Shown here: positions 1,096-59,400 of the stretch, in pieces | How positions within the stretch are numbered: the stretch's first letter is position 1 | How the letters are laid out: each line of letters begins with the position of its first letter | Assembly (NCBI RefSeq): GCF_018873765.1 | Contig: NC_057922.1 | Coordinates: forward strand, 9,251,563 to 9,315,562 | Reading direction: 5' to 3' | From: Telopea speciosissima | Taxonomy: Eukaryota; Streptophyta; Magnoliopsida; Proteales; Proteaceae | Length of the DNA: 64,000 nucleotides | Position numbers and translations under genes: made by a program | Notes under the pieces: model-generated | The model's input: the letters and a program-made list of their open reading frames with translations, nothing else | Told to the model about the DNA's origin: nothing | The model's database searches: none

Positions 1096-2827
1096 CTCAG
1101 CAAGGAAAACGGAAAGAAATCCCCTAAGGAATACCTTTCCCAATGCCATAACCCTCAGTCGAGGAGCACATTTTTGCTATGCTAAAAATACATGTACTGG
1201 CTCTGCTATTCTGCCCCAGCCCAGCTGAGGAAGAGTTAAGAGTAAAACGCAAAATATGCTGATTCGGGCTGGCCGGCCATACTATATTTGAGTCAAAATT
1301 TCAAATAATAATAAAAAAAATAAGGCCATTCCATTTCGACAAAAAAACCACACCCGAGTTTCATAGCTTTGGGTCCGCTATCCCAGTCATGATTTTCCTA
1401 CCCTCACTACTCTACACAACTGTGAGCAGCAAATTCTTGAGTCTTCCAAACCCTAATTTTCATTCTTTCCTTACTAGGGTTAGCAATTGTCATTTCATTT
1501 TGAAATCCAATTTTGAGATTGTAGGGTCCTTATGCTGCATTAGTTTGTTTAAGCTATACTTAGTTTGGTAATATATATTTTTGGTTTAGATTGTGGTTTT
1601 ATTACACTTGGATCTGTTTGGCAAGTTCAGTTTGGAAGCTTTTCCTTGTTTTGTACTGCAGGAGTGCAGGGTTAGGGAAGTATTTAGTTAAGCACTTACC
1701 TTTCATTTATCTTTGAGGATGTTACTCAAGTGCCTTCAAGTAGCCTTTTATATTCATTTGCTGCTTCGTTTACAATCTTATTGTAACAATGTTGCTGATC
1801 GAAAGTGAGTGCATAAATGGGGAGAGTGATGCAGACCAAATCAATGGATCTGCTTGTGGTGGGATTAAGAGAGAGTAAGAGGAAAAGAAAGAGAAGATAA
1901 GGAGTTGTTCCGGGAATGTGAACAGTACCAGTCAAAGCTAAGAGAGGAGAGAAGGGAGAGAGAAATACGAGAGGCAACAGCCTCAATATAAAATCAACTA
2001 AATCTCATTCATCAAATAATGTCTAGGGTGTGGCAGCTCTCTTTATTTATAATAATGAAGCAACATTACATAATTAGAAACTCTTCATAACTAAGGAAGA
2101 GTTTTCAAAATAGAAAGTAGAAACTTACAAGAAATAGAAACTAGAATCTTATAGATTAAGGTAACTAAATAAGTAATAAAGAAGCGACAAAATAAAACCC
2201 ACGATCCCAACAAGCAGTTGAAAGATCTCAACAGAATATTCTCCAAACATTCTGGTCAATCTCCTCAAGATACCCTCCATATATGCTGATCAAGCCCCAA
2301 TCGACCTACTTTTAAGGAGACCAGAAAATCTCTAGCTATAGGTAAGATCCCAATCTAGGAATCCTTGGAACCAATGGGCCCACTACTAATACTAAATTAA
2401 AAGATTAAATTCGTGCCCCCCCCCCTGGACCCAATATTTGGGGCTTATAATTGAGCCTATAACCAAAGACTATCAAAACATGCCCTAACATAAAAGACCA
2501 AACTACATCCAATGGTGGTGATCATGCTCTTGCATTAGGGAGGAAGAGAGTTCACTTCGTATCAAGTTCTCATTTATTTTTTCGATCTTGACAAAATGTC
2601 TACATATAAAGCATTAATTGTATTTGAAATATTTTATGCATCTGAAAAGAACTGATATATAAAACAGATATATAAAACAAATCAAAAAGTGACAAAAACG
2701 TTAAAAAACAAATACTTTTGTTGGCAAAAAACATGAGATATGTAGATGAATCTTTGAAATCAGAATTTTTTTCTCGATTCTCCAATTTCCAAAAGAGAAT
2801 AGACCTACATAATTCATAAGCACCAAC
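1096..2827. other. Intronic or intergenic DNA downstream of VPS52 exon 4
   Basis: No coding exon could be found on either strand. About 1600-2250 is purine-rich and resembles decayed LTR DNA. The next VPS52 exon, which should begin with the conserved DYIKES-type segment, is not visible here. This is therefore the start of a very long intron that carries repeats, or the gene is broken. Confidence 0.4.
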
Positions 2828-5800
2828 CTGAATCGAATTCAGTTCAACTTGGCGTACATTGTTCTCAACACCCTTAGCATAATCCCTTAGTTTTGTGCCT
2901 TTAGACAATATATCTGTAACCACCTATAGAACAAAAAATAATAAATCATTTAAGTGATCAACAAACGATGTCCTCAAGGGCACCAACCATCTGTACGAAA
3001 GAAGCATTAGAATATTAACATGTAACCTTTAACAATAAGAGTATCAGGATTATTATGAGAACAAAGAACAACTAGATAATAAACATGGCACTGAACCTAA
3101 AAGGAAATAAGTTTTTAGTATAGATACATTCACATAATTAAGGATATGTGCGATGGAGTTATAACAAATGTTAGAACAACTAGGAAGAGATGAGGGAGTT
3201 CCCAACCATGGTCTACAAGAGGGGTCAGCATTGAGCCCATACCTCTGTGTTAGTGAAGGATAAGTTGGTTCATACATGATTAAGGAAGAACAATGAAGGC
3301 TTTAATAAGGAGTGAACAATACAAATTGAAGGTGCAGAGCAAGGCCAAAAATGACCTGGGTTGAAGTGGTGGAGAAAAAACAAAACACCATTTACCTTGT
3401 AGCCAATTACAAGATGTGAAGCCAGCACCATACACCTTGTCAATTGCTTAAGGCATAAGAGCACCTCATGCCATTGTCCAAACTGTTTGGAACAGATTGT
3501 CAGACCACCAACCACCAGGCCAGAATGGTTCAGCATCCAGCCCATGTTTAAAGAACTCTTGTTGTCAGTGATCATGCTGGACATGGACACAACGTCCAAC
3601 ATCTTTTAGGGCTCACTTCGGACCATCAAGCGATTGAAAAGCATGAACTGGGTGGGAGCCAAGGGTTATATGGTTCACCAGCTCCAGGTTTTTGATAGAA
3701 TATCATTTGTGGCTTTCTAATGGCCGACATTTCTAAACCAAACCTTACTGGACAGTTGGGAGATCCAATTCGGATCATCTAAAATTATCTTAAAACACTA
3801 ATCTCTTCACCAGCACGGCTAATTTCAAATAACCTTGAATCCTTTTGAACCTGTTGGCTCATTCTACACCAAACCTACTTTATGCTTTCAAGCCCTGATT
3901 GATTACATTCATGATCTCTCAATCTCTGGACCTGCTAATAGCAAACAATCCTTTCAGAACCTAAATGTCTTCAACTAGTCCAAGATTGTATATATGGTGC
4001 TGATAAAAGAACCACAAGCAATTGCCAACACTGAATGTAGTACTAGAGATATGGTTCCTTGTTCACCAACTTTAGAATGCCACCCCCTTGATATCCATTC
4101 TTCTTTGAAATCATAAAACCATTCCAGATTATTTTCTTTTGCATAACAAATTCCTAGAGGTTTATTTATGCTCAAAATAGCAGTCCCCAATGTTTCAAAG
4201 CAAAATTCTAAGTAAAAATCAAGATCAGGATTCAATGATTATGATAAAATACTCTACTCTACTTTGCCAGGTGTGAAATCACTCTTTATATCAAAATTTA
4301 ATTCCAGAAAAAGTATTCTGTTTTTGTGATATAGACTAATGAAGCATAGTACAACGCACAAAGACTAGGTGGCCCTCCATAATGCCCCTTCAATAAAATA
4401 TAAGATCAAGCTACACAGTAAACCCAAGGAGAATCCACCTTTAGGTGCATTCCGTTGGAGGTATATTCTTTATGCTACCCTGATCGCACCCCTCTCCATT
4501 CTTTACATACTATTTACCTTTATCTTTTTGTTTTTTATTATTTTTTTTATAAGTATTAGTAAACGCAGGATTCAGCATGGTGTTCATCAGGTAAATCCTC
4601 ACCATTTTTTTAATAAAGGAAGATGAGGCAATCCCTTAATGTGGCCAGATGCAAGCAACATCCACAACAGAGAAGCAAAAAAGAAAGTTCACTGTTCAAT
4701 AATATCATCAAATATCTCATTTTTACCTCACTATCATCTAGTGGACAATTTTTGCCACATCATTGATTTACGATGAAAAAGCATTACCAAGGTACTAAAA
4801 GAAACTAAAACAGCATCAGTTTAGCATGTAAAGGCATTGCAAAGATACAAAAGAAAGCTAACCCAAGAGTACTTACTTCATCATTCTTACATTCTTCCAG
4901 CTCTTCCTGTAGTCCATCCAATGATACATCGTCACTACAAGAAGTAAATCCAATGGTTGCCTCAGGCCATAATAATTAGAATGTAAGCAATAGATATAAG
5001 CCTTATCCTCGCTGCATGCCACTGGAAAATTATTTATTGTGGACATTTTAACAAGCAAATCACTATGACCCTTAATTATCTTCAGCAAAGTTCATTGAGT
5101 CAATTTTGGGTTCCTTTTCTAATGCAATTTGACTTTGGGGTCAGGTTGTTTCTCTCTGAAGTGTCTTAGGGCAGCACAGGTAGTATTCATTGCCATCATG
5201 ATCTAAAGGAACTTTCCTTCACAAAAGAGGTTATAAAAATTGGGGTTTTTAGAGCAGAGACCACAAGAAAACCACCACAGCTTATTGTAAGTAAAATTTT
5301 AGTCTATATACCTGTTTACATCCTCCTCAAAAGCCAAATCCCCAACAAATACTCCCTCAAATCCAGCTTTCTGGATATCATGAGTCTCACCATAGGAGTC
5401 ACCCTGCAGCCAACATAAAAAACTTCTAGAGTCAAAACATCATAATCTCCATCTTATATGTGTTAATCAGGCATAATGTCGATTCGTTGGCAACAGATAG
5501 CATGGGCCCTTGGTGATTATCTCATTTCATTAGAGTGTCCCATTCCCTGGCATCTTCAGTAACATATCATTCCACTGGGTGGCAAATAATCTCACAGATG
5601 AGTTAGCCAAACTAGGGGCAAATAAAACACATAATTGGCCCTTACCACCATCGTAAACTCTGTGTAGTAACTCATTTTTCGGATCATATCTTGGACCCAG
5701 CGTATTCACTTCTCTCTTGTATCATTGCTGTATCTTCTAACTAAAATTCAAGTTATTTCATACAACTCTGGACCAAGCCAGCAATTAGCCATTTAATTCT

Positions 5801-5964: not shown

Positions 5965-7458
5965 CTATCAAGTGTACTTCATCCAACACAAGCTTCTAAA
6001 TGTTGTGTTGCCAAATCCAAGAAAATTACCAGGAAGAAAGCTTAGGAATGATCACCACAAAGACCGCACAAGTTCCCTGCAAAAAAGTTTGCCATACATA
6101 AATATACAACACAGATGCATCATTCAAAGAATAATAATTTAAACATAGCATTACCTATGTTATATACTTATATATGTATATAGGAGACGGTTGGGTAAGC
6201 CGCCAGCTCCAGGTAAGCTAGCAACTGTGCCCAATGGGGAGGGCAGGGGTATCAATAAATATATTTATATATATACATTTAATTCTATTAAAATAACTCT
6301 CCAACAAGCCCAACAGTGCCAAATTTGAACATAGCATTACCTATGTGACCAAATTGGCCCTTGAAAGATTTCAACTTCTTTTCCTTTTTTACTCTTTCTT
6401 TTTTGGTGGGTGGGGTGGGGTGGGGTGGGGTGGGGTGGGGGGGGGGAGGGAGGGTTTATAAGTCTACCTTCATTTATAATCAAATCCACCACCAATTGAG
6501 AAAATGTACTCTGGTATGGGGTAAGCATCAGCAGTTTTTCCCCTTTGTTTTCCCCCCCCCCCCCCCCCGCCCTGAATTTCAGTGATAACATTCTAAGAAA
6601 AGAAACAGCAGAAACAACATACCCAATTAATGTTACTTTTTAAATACAGACAATAACCATCAATGATACATGTCACCCTCGTTAGATCAGAACTCAGTTT
6701 CCCTACTGTAATTCGGACATTGTTCTCCAACCACGTAGCTCTTCCTCAAAACAATGCCACAAATGCCTATTTGCCTAAAAGAAATCAAAGAAAATTGTAT
6801 AGAAAGCAGAAAAGTTCATATATGTAAAACTAAAAGCACGCTGAAACTCCGATCATCATAGCAAAGGGAGCAAATACGTATCAGCAACTAAACATTTTAA
6901 ATAGTATTACCTAAAGTAAATCAGTGACAGAAAATGAGCTGAATCACATTTGTATATACATATGATTCTTCAGTAATACTTGAGATAGGATGATTGAATC
7001 AACAAATGATTCAATCAATGAATCCTCTGAGATACGACAATCTAGCAACATCTCGACGCATCAGGTAATCATCAACACCATTAATCATAGATTCAATTTG
7101 TCGTTGAAAACAAAACTTTGGAGGGAGGAGGGGGGGAACACCTGTCAAAAGAGTCGCTTTGTACGAAATATGAAAATAGGGATTCGCCGGTTAGAAGCAG
7201 ATCCAACAGCTCTTCCAAATTCCGATGCTGCGTTCGTCAACCACTCGACGCCGGCTCTGGTGAAGAACTGTAATTGCTGGAACCTGGATCTGAATCCAAG
7301 TCCACTCAAGAGTCAAGAGTGGGGCTCAAATTCGTGGCGAGTACGAAAAGACACGAATTAGACCAAATCCTTATGGGCGGTTTTTGGACGGGGTGTTTCG
7401 GAGAATTGTAAGAAAACTATATCGGTCGGACCATTCTGGTACCGGTTAGAAATCGAAA
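5965..7458 (-). promoter_or_regulatory. VPS52 leader and promoter region
   Basis: Upstream of the VPS52 start codon on its strand. The stretch 7150-7400 is GC-richer than its surroundings and, read on the minus strand, looks like a plant 5' leader containing TTTTGACAG followed by GTGTTC, so a leader intron is possible. The transcription start is probably near 7400. No clear TATA box was found. The region also holds the G-run and C-run pair at 6404-6571. Confidence 0.3.
6404..6571. repeat. G-rich minisatellite (GGGGT units) facing a C-run
   Basis: At 6404-6451 the plus strand has repeated GGGGT units followed by an uninterrupted G-run. About 100 bases on, at 6551-6571, there is a long C-run. 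The two can pair as a hairpin, and the G-rich strand has far more than the four G-tracts needed for a quadruplex. Long open frames on both strands here are by-products of the low complexity. Confidence 0.8.
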
Positions 7459-7609
7459 AACTTTTAGGCCAAATGTTCTATGTGCAGTAGCGCAGGCTGC
7501 ACTAGACACATAAGAATGGACGAAATGACCATCCTGCCCACCTGAATGGATAACCCATGTGTCTGGGTGCAGCCTGCGCTGCTGCAATTACAACTTCTGC
7601 CCAAAGTTT
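7459..7609. mobile_element. Small foldback MITE, about 150 bp
   Basis: The left arm (7466-7510) contains GCGCAGGCTGCACTAGACAC; the right arm (7550-7605) carries its inverted counterpart. Arms of about 50 bp pair with few mismatches, separated by about 45 bp. No clean target duplication was found, so the superfamily is open. Confidence 0.6.
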
Positions 7610-8127
7610 TATTACTGGTTTTAAAGACATGTATCTAAAATTAAAACCGTATTAGATCGAAAACGGTATTAGACCAATGATAACCTGATAAGAGGAAATC
7701 GATAAAACTTCGAACCAAACTAGAACAAGACCGAAACTGAAACCTAGATGAATAGAATCACTTCATATATTAGCACGCGCAAGTTCTTCAACTTCTTTGA
7801 ATCCTTTTTTGTGATATGAAAGAAAAGAGGTACCCTTCCGGCCATCCCTTGATGAGAAGTCTTTAGGAGACCTGTTACCGTGCTACTCTTTACTGGCTAG
7901 AGATCTAATTTCATGGGTGACAGCCAAGGGAAATCCTTTCATCAATGGATATGCACAAAGAGGTTCGTTTTTTTTTCCAAGAAAAAGTGTGGAGGATGAT
8001 TGAACGGAGAAAGAAAGAAACATGTGCAATAGGCTTTTGGAAGGTATTAGGACGACTCTGAGTAATTGACTAGATTTTCAGGGAGCTCCTCGCCGTCTTG
8101 GCAAGGTTCGGCAATCATACTCGTAGC

Positions 8128-19053: not shown

Positions 19054-20539
19054 GGGTTTTTTCACGTACCCCTGAGGTTTTACGTAATTATGGAAAAATC
19101 CCTAAATTTTCAAAAATACCATGTACCCCCCTGAGGTTCTTAACAGTTAACATATTCTCCCATTCCGTTATTCTAAGTCTAACAGTGTTAAAATCAAGTG
19201 ATAAACTGACAAAAATGCCCTTATGAGAAAGAAAAAAAAGACAAAAATCCTGCAACTCATCTTCCCAAGTCGATTTGAGAAAGATGAATTGCAATATCGA
19301 AGAAGGGAACACCATTGATCTTCACCATTGTAGTTGAAGATCTAAAAAATATGCCTAAACGTGTGAAATAGGAACCAAAACGAATACAAATTGAGTTAAA
19401 ATCAAATTAGTGAAAATTCTGCAAAAAACCGAATGGATTTTGGTTTTCAGTTGTAATTTCTAAGATTTTGTATCAATTATTATAAAATACAATGTAAGGC
19501 TCTTTAGGCACATGCGATTAGGATTTTGGGATATGATTTGAGTTGCTTGCGCAGGGAGTCTCTGAGAAACAGCTAGGGTGAGAAGCCTACAACCTGAGAT
19601 GGGTTCTTCTTCTCTTTTCTTCTTCTTTTTCTCCATTCTACCGCCAACCATATTCTGAGTTTGAATTTTGATCATCAATAGCTATAGTTGCTGGGTGCGT
19701 TTGATCTCAGATTTAGAGTGTCAGACTACTCTTTCATTCCATATCAGATTCCTGATCATCAGGTAAGATCAAATCAAAGTTTTGATTTCTGATTTATCTA
19801 ACTAGCGGCTGCTCTGTTTTATTATCTATTTCAACACCTAGTGATTTGTTATTAAACCTGATCCATTAACCTGATTCCACCCAAACTTTTGGGAATCAAA
19901 GCCCTACCCTGGACTTATACTCGACCAGATTTGGTGGCTGTCTAATCTGTTATTTTTCTGCTATTTAATCATCGCTCATACCTGCAAATTCTTGATTCCA
20001 GAAAAAATAATTCCTGATTACTTCTAATCTAACCATTAGATTAGGATAATTATTGGGGATTGTTGAAGACTATCGAGATAGGGGAGCCAATCTCGACAGT
20101 CTTCAATAGGGATCATTAAAGCTACCCTGGGAGAGAATTCGATCCACATTTGGGGAAGATCTGACCAGTGGATTGAATTTCTGTTTGATTGAAGTCTGAA
20201 AGTTCTCCTTCAAAACCGGAATTCTCTAAGTACTCTCGAACTACCTAACCATTATCTCATCTTCTGAAGGAGCTAACACACTCATTGTTCCCTACAAGAT
20301 ACATGCAACTCATCTTCCCCAAATCGATTTGGGGAAGATGAGTTGCCAGGTTTTATTTTTCTTTCTTGTAAGGACATTTTTGTCGGTTCTTCCCTCTATT
20401 TTAATACTATTAGGCTTAAACTAACGGAATAGAAGAATATGTTAACTGTTAAGAACCTCAGGGGTACACAGTATTTTCAAAAACTGAGGGAGTTTTCCAT
20501 AATTATATCAAACCTCAGAGGTATACGTGAAAAAAACCC
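19054..20539. mobile_element. Long-TIR Mutator-like element, copy 1
   Basis: The left arm begins GGGTTTTTTCACGTACCCC at 19054 and continues with CTGAGG and a fixed series of blocks to about 19300. The right arm (about 20290-20539) is its inverted counterpart, ending ACGTGAAAAAAACCC. Arms are about 240-250 bp. Flanks are nine Ts on the left and TCTTTTTTT on the right, compatible with a 9-bp duplication carrying one change. The 1-kb interior has no recognised gene. A 38-bp near-perfect palindrome (20308-20345) sits at the inner end of the right arm. Confidence 0.8.
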
Positions 20540-20854
20540 TCTTTTTTTTTCACCTTATATGGGATTGGATACCCTTTCTAGCGATCGGAAGCACTCCAGT
20601 GTCTGGGCGCAGAAACCACACAATCAGGTAGCATTATTTACCTATTATACATATTATTTAGATAAATATAGGGAAATTTACGCATATCACCCTGAGGTTT
20701 GACAAAAGGATATTTTCACCCCCAGGTTTGAAAAATTCTGTGTACCTTCCTGAGGTTTGCAAACTGTAACAGACAGGTCCATTCCGTCAGTTCATGATTA
20801 ACACTGTTAAAAAATAGATTTGAACCGACTGAATTGCCCTTCTAAGAAGAGTCG

Positions 20855-20885
<31 letters not shown>

Positions 20886-21152
20886 CAACTCATCTTCCCC
20901 AAATCGTTTAGGGTTTGAAAAAAGGGGAAGATAAGTTGGGGAGAAGAGAAGCAATTCTCACCACCATTAATGCTTCTCAGGAAGAAAGCGTGACCTAGCT
21001 TGACCTAGCTTTCTTCTTTTTCACGGATACCTTCGCAGAAACTTGAGAGTATATCATCGTCCGCTTCAACATCTCTGTATCAAGAACCAAAGCCAAAGTA
21101 TCTCTTACTTCTATTCTCTTTCTTCTCTCGCTTCTTCTTTAAAGACAGAGAA

Positions 21153-21484
21153 ATGGAGCTTAGCAACCTAACGCAGGAGATCTTCTCGAGACTGGAGCAG
21201 AACTGTAGCAGAAATGGCTATCGCATTGTGAAAACAAGAAAACTAGAATTCTTAGCATTGACGGTGGTGGAACAAAAGGCCTTGTTGCCGGAGCAGCCTT
21301 AATCCATCTAGAAGACCAGATCCAATCCAAAACCGAAGATCCTCAATCTCGAATCATCGATTTCTTCGACGTTCTCGCTGGAACGGGAATCGGCGCCATT
21401 TTCGCTGCAATGCTGACGGCAGACGCCAGTAATGGTGGCCCATTGTTCACCGTCAGAGATTGGATTAAAACATGGTTAACTTAG
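21153..21484 (+). pseudogene. Captured patatin-like phospholipase fragment (pPLAIII type)
   Basis: Starts ATG at 21153 with MELSNLTQEIFSRLEQN, like the N-terminus of plant patatin-like proteins. After a one-step frame change near 21240 it reads TRILSIDGGGTKGLVAGAAL, IHLEDQIQSKTEDPQSRI and IDFFDVLAGTGIGAIFAAML, ending with FTVRDWIK and a stop. DGGG is the oxyanion-hole motif. GTGIG replaces the classical GxSxG, the known mark of the pPLAIII group. About 105 of some 400 residues are present and the catalytic Asp region is absent. It lies wholly inside the Pack-MULE and is a gene fragment. Confidence 0.85.
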
Positions 21485-21603
21485 GTTGCAGGATTGATCA
21501 TGTTGGAACCTGCAACGCTAATTATTTTGTTTCTTTCTACTTTTTCTATATCTCTGTACATGTTTCAATCTGCAGATGATGTTCCTATTTTATTTTGTTA
21601 AGT

Positions 21604-21816
21604 GTTGATAAAATTGGTGAAACATTTCTACACGGGAAGAAGGGTATTTGGATTAAAATACCTATTGAACTTGCAAATCTAGTTGAAGCTGCTGTTAAGG
21701 TAACTAATTCAGAAGCTTATCTGGAAAATTGCATTTTATTTATAAAAATTTCTTCGATTTCCTGGGTCAATTCATGTTTCCCTGACTCTGATTAATGGAT
21801 TTGCAGGAGGAAAGCA
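21604..21816 (+). pseudogene. Captured Nudix hydrolase exon with its intron
   Basis: Reads VDKIGETFLHGKKGIWIKIP then IELANLVEAAVK, followed by donor GTAACT at 21700 and, about 110 bp on, an acceptor GATTTGCAG before GAGG. This matches the N-terminal part of plant NUDT2/NUDT10-like proteins (family form: QGKKGVWLxLP...NLVEPAVKEG), with the exon boundary in the expected place. The Nudix box itself is not present. Keeping the intron shows it was copied from genomic DNA, not mRNA. Confidence 0.75.
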
Positions 21817-22403
21817 TGACCTAGCTTTCTTCTATTCTCTTTCTCAAATGCGCCGGGGGGTGGGGTTGAAGCTTTTGTTTCTTAGCAATTCACCATTCGA
21901 AGGTACGGTTTCTTCTATTCATGTTTCTTAGCAATTCACCACAAACCGTACCTTCGAATAGTGACCTGCTTATCATTAATTAGCAACAATTGACATAGCT
22001 TTCTTCTATTCTCGGTTATGGTAAATTGCTGCTTATCATTAATTAGTAGCAATTGAACGAACAACAAATCTGATTAATGGATTTCCTGCGTCAATCAAAG
22101 TATCTCTTTCTCAGGAAGAAAGCGCTTGACCTAGTTTTCTTTTCTTTCTTCTCTCACTTCTCTTTGGGGAAGATGAGTTGCAGTTTTTATTTTTGATTTT
22201 TGATTTTTTTGTTCTTTTCTTAGAAGGGCAATCCATCAGTTCAAGTTTATTTTTTAACATTGTTAGTCATGAACGGATGGAATGGACCTATCTGTTACCG
22301 TTTGCAAACCTTAATGGGATACGTAGAATTTTCCAAACCTGGGGAGTAAAAATATCCTTTCGTCAAACCTCAGGTGAGTATGCGTAAATTTCCCATAAAT
22401 ATA

Positions 22404-42011: not shown

Positions 42012-42410
42012 CTCATAATGATTGATTGGTGAGCTAGTATCGGTAAGTTATACATCAGTTGCCTGTTAACGGTTTTTTTTTTTTGGTGAACTGCCTGTTA
42101 ACGGTTCACATTGTCTTTCTGCAGACCTGGCACACGGAAGTTGAAACTAGGTGACCAATACTTTTCGGTCTCGCATGAGATCATATCGTTCGTTCTAGCA
42201 GACTATATGATCTGATCTGTTTTTTTTTTTTATGTTTGTTTGTTGATGATCAAACCTCAATCCCAGGTTTTCTTCCTCCACCTGAGATCTGATACTAGAA
42301 GAAGTTACTGGTTCCCATTACACCGACATCATATTGCTTTGAAATTTTCCCTTGCAAAATCTGAGTTCATTCATGGCCAATGCGGACATGTGCATCTACC
42401 ATTCGACAGT

Positions 42411-45038
42411 ATGTCTCAATGGGATCCCAAAACTTGGGAAGCCATGTTCAGGAGTTATTGTGTTAATGCTAGGCATACAGAAGCTCTGTCATTGGTTTAT
42501 CAAAGGATGCATTGTTCTGAGAGCTTTAGACTGGACTACCAAGACATGGCAGCCCTTCTCAAGTCTTATGCTGCTCTCTCGGCTATTGAATTGGGGAAGT
42601 CTTTTCATGGGTATACCGTTAAATTGGGTTACGACTCGTGCTAAGCCGTGTCTAAGTCTCTGATGAACATGTATGCCAAATGTAGGGCCCTACATGATTG
42701 CCACCGATTGTTTGTTCAAGGATATGCTGGGTCCAGGAGGCATGACCTTGAAGCAATGAAGTTGTTCCATGCAATGCATGTCTGGGAGGAGGAGCCTAAG
42801 CCCAACTCAATTCCTGTGGCCATTATCCTTCCTGCGTATGGTCGATCAAGAGATTTGCATGCCGACAAGAGTGTCCATGCTTATGTGATTAAATCTGGAT
42901 TTGAATCACAGACTCTTGTTGGAAATTCTTTGGTATACATGTATGCAAAATGCAGTTGTTTAGATGATGCCTATGTTGCATTTTGTGGGATTGCTTGTGA
43001 AGATGTTGTCTCGTGGAATGCAATTATCTCTGGGTATGCAAAGAAGGGGTTCTTTGCTGACGCATTTGAATTGTTCCGTCAGATGTTGGCAGTTGATAGT
43101 GAACCTAATTATGCAACAATCGTTAATATCCTTCCTCTTTGTGTTTTGATAGAACATGATGGAAAATACTGTTTTGGGGAGGAAATTCACTGTTATGTGA
43201 TGCGGCGACCCCAGTTGGCAGCAGATATTTCTATAGACAATGGTCTGGTGAGTTTCTACTCAAGGATTGGAAGGTTGGGAGAAGCAGAATCCATACTGTA
43301 GGATGAAATCAAGAGATTTAGTTTCATGGAATGCTATAATTGCAGGATATGCATCTAATAGTGAGCCATGGAAAGCATTGGAGTTGTTTCATGAATTGCT
43401 CTCAATGGAAATGGTGGAGCCAGATTCTGTAACTCTTGTGACCATACTTCCAATTTGTGCACAATTATGCAATGCACAAGAGGGGCAGAAGATCCATGAG
43501 TATGTTCTCCAACATCATGAACTATGTGAGGACACGGCTGTAGGTAATGCCCTAATAAGCTTTTATGCAAAATGCAATGACATGGAAGCTGGCATTGAAG
43601 ATATTCTCAACCATTCCTCAAAAATATTTTATATCATGGAACACAATGCTTGATACTTATGCAGAACATGGACGTGCAACCCAACTTGTCAATCTTTTAC
43701 ACCAGATGCTCAATGAAGGATTGCTGCCTGACTCCATAACTCTCTTGACCATTCTTCGTGTTTGTGCCAATGTTTCCAAGGAGGCCATGGTTAAAGAAGT
43801 TCGTGGTTATTCTATTAGAAGAGTTTGTTACTGAGTGACCTGGAACGAAGTGTTGGAAACATGATACTTGATGCATACACCAAATGCGGGAACATGGATT
43901 ACGCATTCAAGACCTTTGAGGGTTTATTAGGAAGGAGGAATGTGGTCACATGCAATTCACTGATCTCAGGTTTTGTTGATTGTGGGTCTTGGGAAAATGC
44001 AGAGATGATTTTTAGTAATATGTCAAAAACAGATCTCACCACATGGAATCTGATGGTCTGGGTTTATGCTGAAAGTGACTACACCACTCAAGCTCTTATT
44101 CTATTCAACGAGTTACAGGCTCAGGGAATGAGACCTGATGCTGTAAGTGTTATGAGTCTCCTTCCAGTTTGTGCTCGTTTGGCCTCAGTCCACCTGCTTA
44201 AGCAGTGCCATGGCTTTGTATTAAGGTCTTGCTTTGAAGATGTCCATTTGAATGGAGCTCTCTTGGATATGTATGCAAAATGTGGATCCATTGATTATGA
44301 GTACAAGTTCTTCCGGTCATGTCCTCAGAAGGATCTGGTTATGTTCACAGCCATTGTGTGCGGGTATGCAATGCATGGCATGAGAGAAGAGGCACTTAAG
44401 GTCTTCTCCGAGATGCTTATGTTGGGTATAAAGCCAGACCATGTCATTTTTACTGCCATCCTATCAGCTTGTAGTCATGCAGGCCTTGTCCATGGAGGGT
44501 TTAAGCTTTTTGAGTCCTTAGAGATGGTCCATGGGATTAAACCCAACATGGAGCATTATTCCTGTGTGGTGGATCTTCTTACTCGGGTAGGATGCTTGCA
44601 AGATGCATATTCCTTTGTAAATAGTATGTCTGTTGGAGCTAATGCAAATGTATGGGGCACATTGCTTGGTGCTTGTAGAACCCATCATGAGGTGAGCTCG
44701 GGCGGGTTGTAGCAGATCATCTTTTTGAGGTTGAGGCTGGTAATATTGGGAACTATGTACTATTGTCAAACATATATGCTGCAGATGCCAAATGGGATGG
44801 GGTCAACAAGGTGAGAAGATTGATGAAGATGAGAGATCTAAGGAAGCCAGCTGGATGCAGCTGGATTGAAGTCCAGAGAAGGATGAATGTTTTTGTAGCT
44901 GGAGATTTCTCTCATCCACAAAGAAGCCTCATTTACAATATGTTAAGCACATTGGACCAACAAATCAAAGAGCCATGTTGCAGTAGCGAAAACATTGTTT
45001 GTGTCAATCAAGTATCAAATAAGATATTAGTACCTTAA
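42411..45038 (+). pseudogene. SLG1: SLG1-like mitochondrial PPR editing factor, pseudogene
   Basis: Intronless and collinear with the E-class PPR protein At5g08490/SLOW GROWTH1, which edits mitochondrial transcripts needed for complex I. It starts MSQWDPKTWEAMFRSYCVNA at 42411. PPR units follow throughout (NMYAKC, SWNAIISGYA, GNALISFYAKC, NVWGTLLGACRTHHE), with the E/E+ end KPAGCSWIEVQRRMNVFVAG and no DYW domain; the tail is DQQIKEP. It is broken: an in-frame TAA at 42642 where the family has Gln (GYDSC-Q-AVSK), an in-frame loss of about 15-18 codons after HRLFVQ (about 42720), and frame changes near 43300, 43595, 43825 and 44693. The intact 991-residue MTR4 nearby argues against sequencing error. 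A functional copy should exist elsewhere. Decay is moderate, so inactivation is not very old. Confidence 0.93.
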
Positions 45039-56400: not shown

Positions 56401-59400
56401 ACTCACCTTTGCATGGCATATCTTGGTAATTGCCTCCACATGAAAGTTCTGCAGTTCTTCAAGAGCATTGATATCCAGAGCAAGAAGATCTTCACTCTGG
56501 AACAGATATGCATGTGAGTAAAAACGTTTGATTTTCCTTTTCTTGTGATTGTTTTAGTCCATTTCTGTTGCCAAAGTAAGCTTTAATTTTTATGATTAAA
56601 ACATGGATGACCAATCCCCACTCCCCCCCCCCCCCCCAAAAGAAAGAAAGAAATAGCAGGTCTAACTAAATCCACACGTTAAGCACTCACCAAGAAAATG
56701 GAAAATATACCTCAACATTGATTCATTACATATTACATGTGCTGTCATGCACCCCAAACCCACACAACCCAGGGAGGGGGGTCAAATATAAAATAAAAAA
56801 GGAACACCCAACTATAGAACTCAAAAAGATATTCCTGACCAACTAAAGATGAGATATGAGAAGGATATAACAGTATATCAAATACCAGGAAAGCACAACA
56901 CAAGCCATTGCATGCAGCTTACAGAGTGCCTACCTTTAATCTGGAAATAATGCTTTCCAGTTCTCTGCACCTTCTCTTTTCTCTCTCATAGCCAACTCTT
57001 AATCCCTCCAATGTACTCCAATCATCCATGTCCCTACAAGTTTCAACTGATTTGAACGTTTTACTTGAGTGAACATTAGATAAAGGAAACCCATTTTCTA
57101 TTCTTGAGTGTGATATATCGGATGCATGTGCCTCCTCAGGTGACGTTTCCTCGGAACAGCAACCACTCTTCTTCATCTTTGCAACAAGCACCCACATACT
57201 TGCCAGCTCATTTTCCAAATCTTCTCCATGCCTTCTTGCTTCTTCCAGTCTTTTTTGCAGCTTACTTTCTTTATGATCTCTTTCAGATAATTCAGACTCC
57301 AGAGAAGCTTCCCTCTGGCATTTTTCCAAAAGCTCTTTTTGCAACTTCTCAACCAAAACTCCATGGTCTGGTTTTCTTACACATGATTCAAATTGGGTAC
57401 CACTATTGTGATCTTGCCTCCCGTTAAATGGTTTGTGCCTATCACATCCATTAGATCTGCAACGACCCTCTTTGGCTGCAGCCAAGTCCTCAGTCAACTT
57501 TGCATTTTGGTATGAAATTCTGGTTACTTCTTCAGCCAAATTTTTAAGCTCCACTGCTGCAGCTGCAGCCAACTCCTTTGCATACGAAGCTTCCACTGAA
57601 AGCTGTTGGCTGTGAATTTCAAGGCCATCCTTCTCTTCAGTCAGTCTCACCTTCTCTTGCTTCAGAGTCTCTACCTCAGCAGCCTAAATCATAAAGAGTA
57701 AGACCTCTGTCAATCAGAAGAATTGACGAGATATCGCATAGCAGAGCAATGGCCTGTGGTTAAAGATACAAAACATGCCAATAAATAAAATAAAGCAACC
57801 AACCTGCATAAGAACTTGAGCATTCAAAGACATATCTCTGTTGCACCTTCTGGAGTCTTCTTGGAATGACATGCCATTTGAGCTTGTAATACATGCGGGT
57901 ACCTTTACATCAACATTTGTTTCTTCATGTGAACCAAACCCATCCTTCCATTCTCCATTTTTTTGAGATGGTTCCGCTGAACAGTTCCCATGGGTAGTAG
58001 CCTCACTATCTGAAATTTTTTTTACGTGACATGAACTTTTATCTAACAAAGAATTAAATTGTTCCCTTAACAGAAGGATAGTTTCCCGCATCTCAGCATT
58101 CTCAGAGTTCTGGTACAAATTGCAAAAGATTGTCAGAAAATTGTAATTATAAACCAGAATGAGAAAGGAAGGAACCAGGCAGTAGAAATTCTCACCTTCA
58201 TCTGCAACTGCTCCTGAAGAATTCTATTATCTGCCGACTTAATCTTCAACATCCAACAAATTAGCAAAACAAACAAGATACAACAGCATAATATAATTAG
58301 AATTTGGTTTTAATCATATTATTAGAAGCAACCAACAAGATACAATTAACCAACCTCAAGCTCAAACAGTTTCTCATTAAGCTGAGTAGCAAGTTTGGAA
58401 AGAGCCTACAGAAGATAAATTCAATCATTAAAAACAGTAGTTAGAATTGGACGAACTACAAGACAAAATATCGTCAATCAGTGGTTTTTAAGGACCATCG
58501 GACCAGACAGTCTCACTGCTCTCAGATTGAATGGACTGTCAACCTTTTTGAGGAGCTGGCCTGTACCAACTAGCTGACTGGACTTTCCTCAAGAAATGTT
58601 CACATGTCACAGAACCGTCCAGTTTTGATGGTCAAACAGTTCAACTGTTTGTACTGTCAAAAAAGGTGGAACGCTGCGTATTATTTTTTATTTTTATTTT
58701 TTTTCAAATTTATAAGGGTCATGGGTTCAAACTCGAGAACTTTCCGTAACTCACTCAAGGAAACACCACTGCCCAACAAGCCACTGACAGTTATGATTCC
58801 AGGAACTATTATATTATATTTAAAATTTATTATTATAACTTAAATATGTAGCAACGGTAAGGTTGCTCCAGTGTGACCAAGTGGTCATGGGTCGAGTCTG
58901 GAAACAGCCTCTCTGCGAAAGCAGGGTTAAGACTCTGTACATTATGACCCTCCCCAGACCCCGCAGTGGCGGGAGCCTCGTGCAATGGGTACGTCCTTTT
59001 ATTATTATAACTTAAATATGTAGCAAAAACCCAGGTAATTGTAAACATATCCTGCACCAGTAGCAGATGGAACGCCACCACGGCAAAAGCCACTGCGGGT
59101 GCGTCCTTTTTTTTTGTCAGTTCTGTTAACTTAAACGTCAGTGGCTTTAAACAATACAGAGCTAACAACATGGATGATGACAATGTTGGGTCTATTGTCT
59201 TCGTGATTAAGTGCAGGTGTATTTACGTACTTGCACAGACTTAAATTTGGTACAAAGGGACCAATTCATGCATTTATCATCATCCATGTTGTTAGCTCTG
59301 TATTGTTTATGGAAATTTAGCACTACTTTACATGCCATTTTTTAGAACGAAGCAGTTGGGGCTGTATATTCACTATGGAACAGTCACCTGAGACATTTCA

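Follow-up and report, generated by a model that had tools for sequence, protein, structure and literature searches.

A Pack-MULE lineage in Telopea speciosissima with patatin-like and Nudix gene pieces and a readable capture history

Pack-MULEs were reportedly described from rice and other plants by Jiang et al. in 2004. The element reported here lies in a window of 64,000 nucleotides (the whole stretch of DNA that was analysed) and resembles the Pack-MULEs of rice: it is non-autonomous with long inverted ends and 9-bp duplications, its lineage holds pieces of several unlinked genes with their introns kept and it occurs in several copies. Both are the same in kind; here, however, the order of the captures can be read from sister copies, and the second piece is found inside the first.

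Within the dicots, 46 Pack-MULEs are counted in Arabidopsis and 220 in tomato according to PMC3310237. Capture from several loci is given as frequent in maize and as present in rice, and it is also reported for Arabidopsis Pack-TYPE elements (PMC8903248). The preliminary description of this DNA had considered two-gene capture as uncommon in a dicot-type genome, which these reports do not support; a published rate of two-gene capture in dicots was not found. As Pack-MULEs are well documented in dicots, rarity is not the point of interest.

The tomato family PM-ZIBP has 14 members with the same captured gene piece, 9–10-bp target site duplications (TSDs) and lengths of approx. 0.9–1.4 kb (PMC3310237). 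It is likewise a multi-copy family of a dicot in which tandem ends occur, comparable to those beside element L017 in the present study. However, one gene piece is described for it in that source, whereas two shared donors and further loci in sub-lineages are involved here. Animal Pack-TIRs, for which gap filling (FoSTeST) is put forward in PMC8277862, share internal breakpoints, a small gap, interchromosomal filler, short microhomology and multicopy spread with the present lineage, but their hosts are animals and the account given there is mostly one of single captures. Its authors regard the applicability to plant Pack-MULEs as worth exploring. Arabidopsis Pack-CACTA elements are non-autonomous elements with terminal inverted repeats (TIRs) and multi-locus capture as well; they belong to another superfamily, and capture between closely spaced insertions is proposed for them (PMC13317346, PMC8903248).

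The route by which plant Pack-MULEs acquire gene pieces continues to be debated, and the end state is all that can be seen in most cases. Here, the sister elements still include a stage that precedes the second capture, together with the fullest chimera and a number of derivatives that came later. The gap-filling route thereby becomes testable in a plant with regard to the letters lost, the letters gained and their order. The element is ordinary in kind, but its build history is unusually readable: a single lineage can keep collecting gene pieces after the first one, and the interest lies in this ordered capture history, an above-average record of construction.

Anatomy of the window element and its donors

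Positions 20671–22394 of the window form one element of 1,724 bp (Table 1). The two TSD copies agree in 9 of 9 letters, for which a chance rate of 8e-5 was obtained with random 9-mer pairs from 15–28 kb of the window, and their length lies in the range of 9–11 bp that is characteristic of MULEs. The same holds for the inverted arms (element letters 1–233 and 1493–1724), as 100–500 bp are typical for long TIRs of this group. Source copies of the host gene pieces are located without such ends on C1 (locus L014) and C9 (locus L015). Open frames inside the element do not reach 130 aa, and its content is accounted for by the inverted arms, the two gene pieces and the filler; therefore, the element carries no transposase. 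Its anatomy is that of a non-autonomous Mutator-like element, i.e. a Pack-MULE, and the preliminary description was right in this respect, with TSDs and TIRs that both align when computed.

Table 1. Features of the Pack-MULE, in window coordinates.
Feature	Position	Strand	Remarks
Left TSD copy ATAAATATA, 9 bp	20662–20670	.	perfect match to right copy
Left terminal inverted repeat, first letters GGGAAATTTACGCATA	20671–20903	+	85% to right arm over ~233 bp
Captured patatin-like piece, leader DNA and start of coding region	20945–21459	+	92% to C1:37754065-37754558
Patatin frame that is still open, 83 aa with the motifs DGGG and GTGIG	21233–21481	+	Pfam PF01734 match
Captured Nudix piece, from an intron across an exon and a further intron into the first bases of the following exon	21460–21810	+	93% to C9:2093653-2094005
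Nudix exon, donor GT at 21700	21603–21699	+	PF18290 and splice sites
Filler, patchwork and internal repeats	21811–22162	+	contains short copies of patatin leader and Nudix letters from the same element
Right terminal inverted repeat	22163–22394	-	inverted copy of left arm
Right TSD copy, 9 bp	22395–22403	.	perfect match to left copy

The ends are part of a large family, since the end pattern GGGWAATTTACACATAYCACCCCTG with one mismatch allowed occurred 1,324 times in the genome (651 forward, 673 reverse) and its reversed control not once. A search of the same genome with the joined flanks gave no paralogous empty site, but both flanks at 100% and four weak partial matches with 78–87%. Two further inverted ends, which are degraded and related to the same end family (∼66% identical), lie a short way upstream of the Pack-MULE at 19108–19275 and 20318–20490. 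They have no clear TSD and probably belong to an older element of approx. 1.5 kb.

The patatin-like piece (element letters 275–789) begins ahead of the ATG, in leader DNA. The frame that begins with the ATG at 21153 is interrupted by an 11-bp insertion, while the remaining frame was matched to PF01734 over the cut-off (E 8e-9) and runs for a few codons into Nudix intron DNA before it ends with a stop. In the donor locus on C1, an open frame includes the Pfam patatin domain over its full length (PF01734, E 2.5e-21), and patatin-17 (1oxw) is its closest solved relative by sequence. Donor and captured piece both have the motif GTGIG. Patatins proper have the serine of GXSXG at this position; GTGIG in its place is presumably typical of the pPLA-III branch.

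The second piece (element letters 790–1140) derives from a NUDT7-like Nudix gene. Its exon matches PF18290 just below the curated cut-off (E 1.5e-5, 25.4 bits vs. 26.5), and an acceptor is present after its donor GT. The donor locus on C9 has PF18290 matches in two exons, and the next exon was matched to Nudix hydrolase 7 (4zb3, E 1.1e-15). Introns are retained in the captured DNA and thus genomic DNA was copied. Both pieces had been named correctly beforehand as parts of two unrelated host genes in the same direction, one with the phospholipase motifs and the other as an exon with its own intron and acceptor, and their parental loci exist at the identities given in Table 1. The extents assigned to them had to be corrected, namely for the Nudix piece as a whole and for the patatin piece by inclusion of the leader and with regard to its broken frame.

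Within the filler (element letters 1141–1492), 98 of 352 letters sit in 12-mers common to element letters 1–1140, compared to 1.5 letters on average and at most 25 in 300 dinucleotide shuffles; the other 254 are without explanation at the 12-mer level. Bits of patatin leader and Nudix DNA succeed each other in a new arrangement, and CAGGA is shared at the junction from Nudix to filler. Elsewhere in the genome, only one match of 58 bp was found, on C3. The window copy is a decayed and shortened derivative of a chimeric lineage.

Sister elements and the order of captures

Querying the genome with the complete element and with the two pieces separately led to at least 13 elements with patatin and/or Nudix DNA, a number that is a lower bound. 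Both captures are present in eleven of them, namely, the window copy, L009 (C30), L011 and L013 (C1), L012 (C2), L018 and L022 (C3), L019 (C6), L020 (C4) as well as L021 and L023 (C8), while L010 (C2) and L017 (C3) contain patatin DNA only. The TSDs of the ten elements with clear outer ends match in 9 of 9 letters in seven cases and in 8 of 9 in three, and nearly all of their sequences are distinct. L010, L012 and L017 have unclear outer ends without a convincing TSD and were left out of this count. What had been taken for one element with two genes does contain two captures, but it is actually one truncated copy from a chimeric lineage with several members, where the Nudix DNA lies inside the patatin DNA. 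On one side of L017, two ends of the family are arranged in tandem (3460–3606 and 3646–3877 of this locus), and a second end pair was observed approx. 0.8 kb from the L013 element (6347–8117 of that locus).

The patatin capture of L010 is a single continuous stretch with donor coordinates 1442–2499 (96.4% identical), which amounts to 1,058 bp for the full capture. In the fullest chimera, L009, this stretch reads patatin up to 1935, Nudix 2155–2598 and patatin from 1953 onwards, so that approx. 445 bp of Nudix replace 16 bp of patatin. Neither the donor gene nor the two patatin-only elements are interrupted at this site, and L017 is unbroken across it save for a 1-bp gap. L010 and L017 have the same right boundary of the patatin capture as the chimeras, and L010 the same left boundary too. 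The simplest order would be that patatin was captured first, that Nudix entered the patatin piece later and that the chimera spread afterwards.

The first Nudix junction is common to the window copy, L009, L011 and L013 and the second one to L009, L012, L019, L020 and L021. Both have a 1-bp overlap, which is no evidence by itself, as chance gives 1 bp in 44% of cases. One site supports that L010 branched off before the chimeras. Trees of the patatin and Nudix pieces had low support that does not settle the branching order, with the donor placed among the elements in the Nudix tree (support 0.35); hence, the order rests on shared boundaries and junctions. Just two clean shared changes, one per half, set all tested elements apart from donor and paralog, and at most differing sites the odd one is the donor itself. 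An entry of the Nudix piece into patatin as a transposon of its own was ruled out because its borders have neither inverted ends nor a duplication, and 16 bp were lost instead.

With a probability of roughly 0.7 (0.72), we consider these elements as a Pack-MULE lineage that captured patatin DNA, gained Nudix DNA by gap repair with template switching, spread and then underwent deletions and further captures. A transposase made elsewhere would have been the mover, and the first uptake of the lineage would have been the 1,058 bp of the patatin-like gene. Later, a break within this piece may have been repaired by copying of the approx. 445 bp from the Nudix gene on another chromosome, in place of the 16 bp of patatin, an order that the sister copies show. 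The chimera would then have been multiplied by transposition, as shown by the distinct 9-bp duplications. Parts would have been lost through deletions with 3–4 bp of shared letters, and some sub-lineages would have acquired DNA from further loci. The leader, the patatin start and the Nudix exon would have been retained in the window copy, where template switching possibly rebuilt some of the right part out of the element's own letters. Copying from another chromosome during gap repair accounts for the insert within patatin, for the few letters lost there and for the filler with its patchwork.

Two related elements might instead have inserted on either side of host DNA and later moved as one, a route that is described and proposed for Pack-CACTA elements (PMC13317346). 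It could explain the patatin capture, with this piece directly between the inverted ends, but we regard it as improbable, for it leaves unexplained the position of Nudix within patatin, the 16 bp lost, the borders without ends or duplication and the micro-patchwork of the filler. Moreover, the donor loci on C1 and C9 have no flanking inverted ends of the family in 9.9 kb each; the sole exception is a 26-bp match to an A-rich stretch near the C1 donor. Even less probable is a chimera that was formed first by another rearrangement and enclosed as a whole by an end pair later. Although the junction microhomology is too short to single out one repair route, L010 and L017 with the capture boundaries of the chimeras put the patatin capture first. 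Furthermore, no free-standing chimera without inverted ends was noticed among 14 patatin and 14 Nudix matches, of which the four viewed in full context were donors or elements.

Concerning the mover assumed for the gap-repair lineage, no autonomous partner was found when 150 PF10551 places listed out of 827 candidates were compared by eye with the first 100 of the 1,324 matches to the end pattern. On C1, and on C2 as far as 39.2 Mb, the 21 PF10551 places listed are all at least 20 kb away from any listed end. Of two long end pairs, L028 has no frame over 112 aa, and no MULE frame was seen in it or in the second one (L029). The family ends of L029 on C1 are 6.8 kb apart and enclose a frame of a hAT-like transposase (PF05699) at 2432–3259, likely a nested hAT insertion.

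Deletions and additional DNA in the sub-lineages

Internal deletions were detected in L012, L018, L022 and L023. Three distinct deletion junctions were readable and have AAC, TCA and CCTA in common (3, 3 and 4 bp), for which the chance per junction is 5.6% (3 bp or more) and 1.8% (4 bp or more). The TCA junction is that of L012, with pre-deletion letters taken from the window copy, while the L017 junction was not clean and was left out of the junction count.

Extra DNA is present in three sub-lineages, namely L011/L013, L018/L022/L023 and L019/L020/L021. One source is C1:12279624-12280034 (98%) with a 231-aa frame that has no Pfam match, and part of it also matches other places at 83–89%. For C8:11967298-11968125 (88–97%), an adjoining exon matches Fumble (pantothenate kinase family), and for C10:55973597-55974193 (91%), the adjoining exon matches a HAD hydrolase weakly, under the cut-off. 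The three fetched source loci have no inverted ends of the element's family. The left piece of L011/L013 is a repeat with 49 genome matches, several of which span all 687 bp of it at 93–95% (L011 4502–5188). In L019–L021, a 48-bp patatin stretch is found in both arms in inverted order; acquired sequence can be built into extended TIRs according to PMC3310237.

A further-reaching reading, which we consider improbable, regards the lineage as a serial capturer: breaks inside captured DNA would be filled from other chromosomes, and one family would build ever new chimeras from patatin, Nudix and then pantothenate-kinase-like, HAD-like and unnamed gene DNA. In copies with patatin exon letters in both arms, a read-through transcript could fold back on itself, and the resulting double-stranded RNA might silence the patatin donor.

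Coding capacity and possible effects on the donors

The window copy most likely encodes nothing useful. Chimeric genes are transcribed in a fraction of Pack-MULEs. That the element is kept by selection, either as coding DNA or for effects of a chimeric transcript or of small RNAs on both donors, appears very unlikely to us. The leader of the patatin gene is included in the capture, 148 patatin and 61 Nudix 21-mers of the window copy are identical to the donors and the 48-bp stretch in both arms of L019–L021 would fit a regulatory role. However, the patatin frame is broken by indels or stops in five of seven measured elements, and the two unbroken pieces (L011 and L013) are just approx. 41 codons long. 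Changes by codon position, summed over nine stretches in 7 of the 13 elements, amounted to 72 at third, 58 at first and 42 at second positions. This excess at third positions could reflect constraint, but part of it stems from changes in the donor lineage itself, to which 6 of 7 such sites in the right half belong. With an excess that is mild, weak constraint may exist. Small-RNA cross-talk with the donors may arise from the shared 21-mers, and captured DNA in maize is described as a siRNA reservoir in PMC13317346.

Apart from the element, a 254-aa open frame without Pfam match and with a coiled-coil look by eye was observed in the window at 56919–57683 on the minus strand, and frames of a PPR-repeat protein, split over several reading frames, are located at 42216–44712 on the plus strand.
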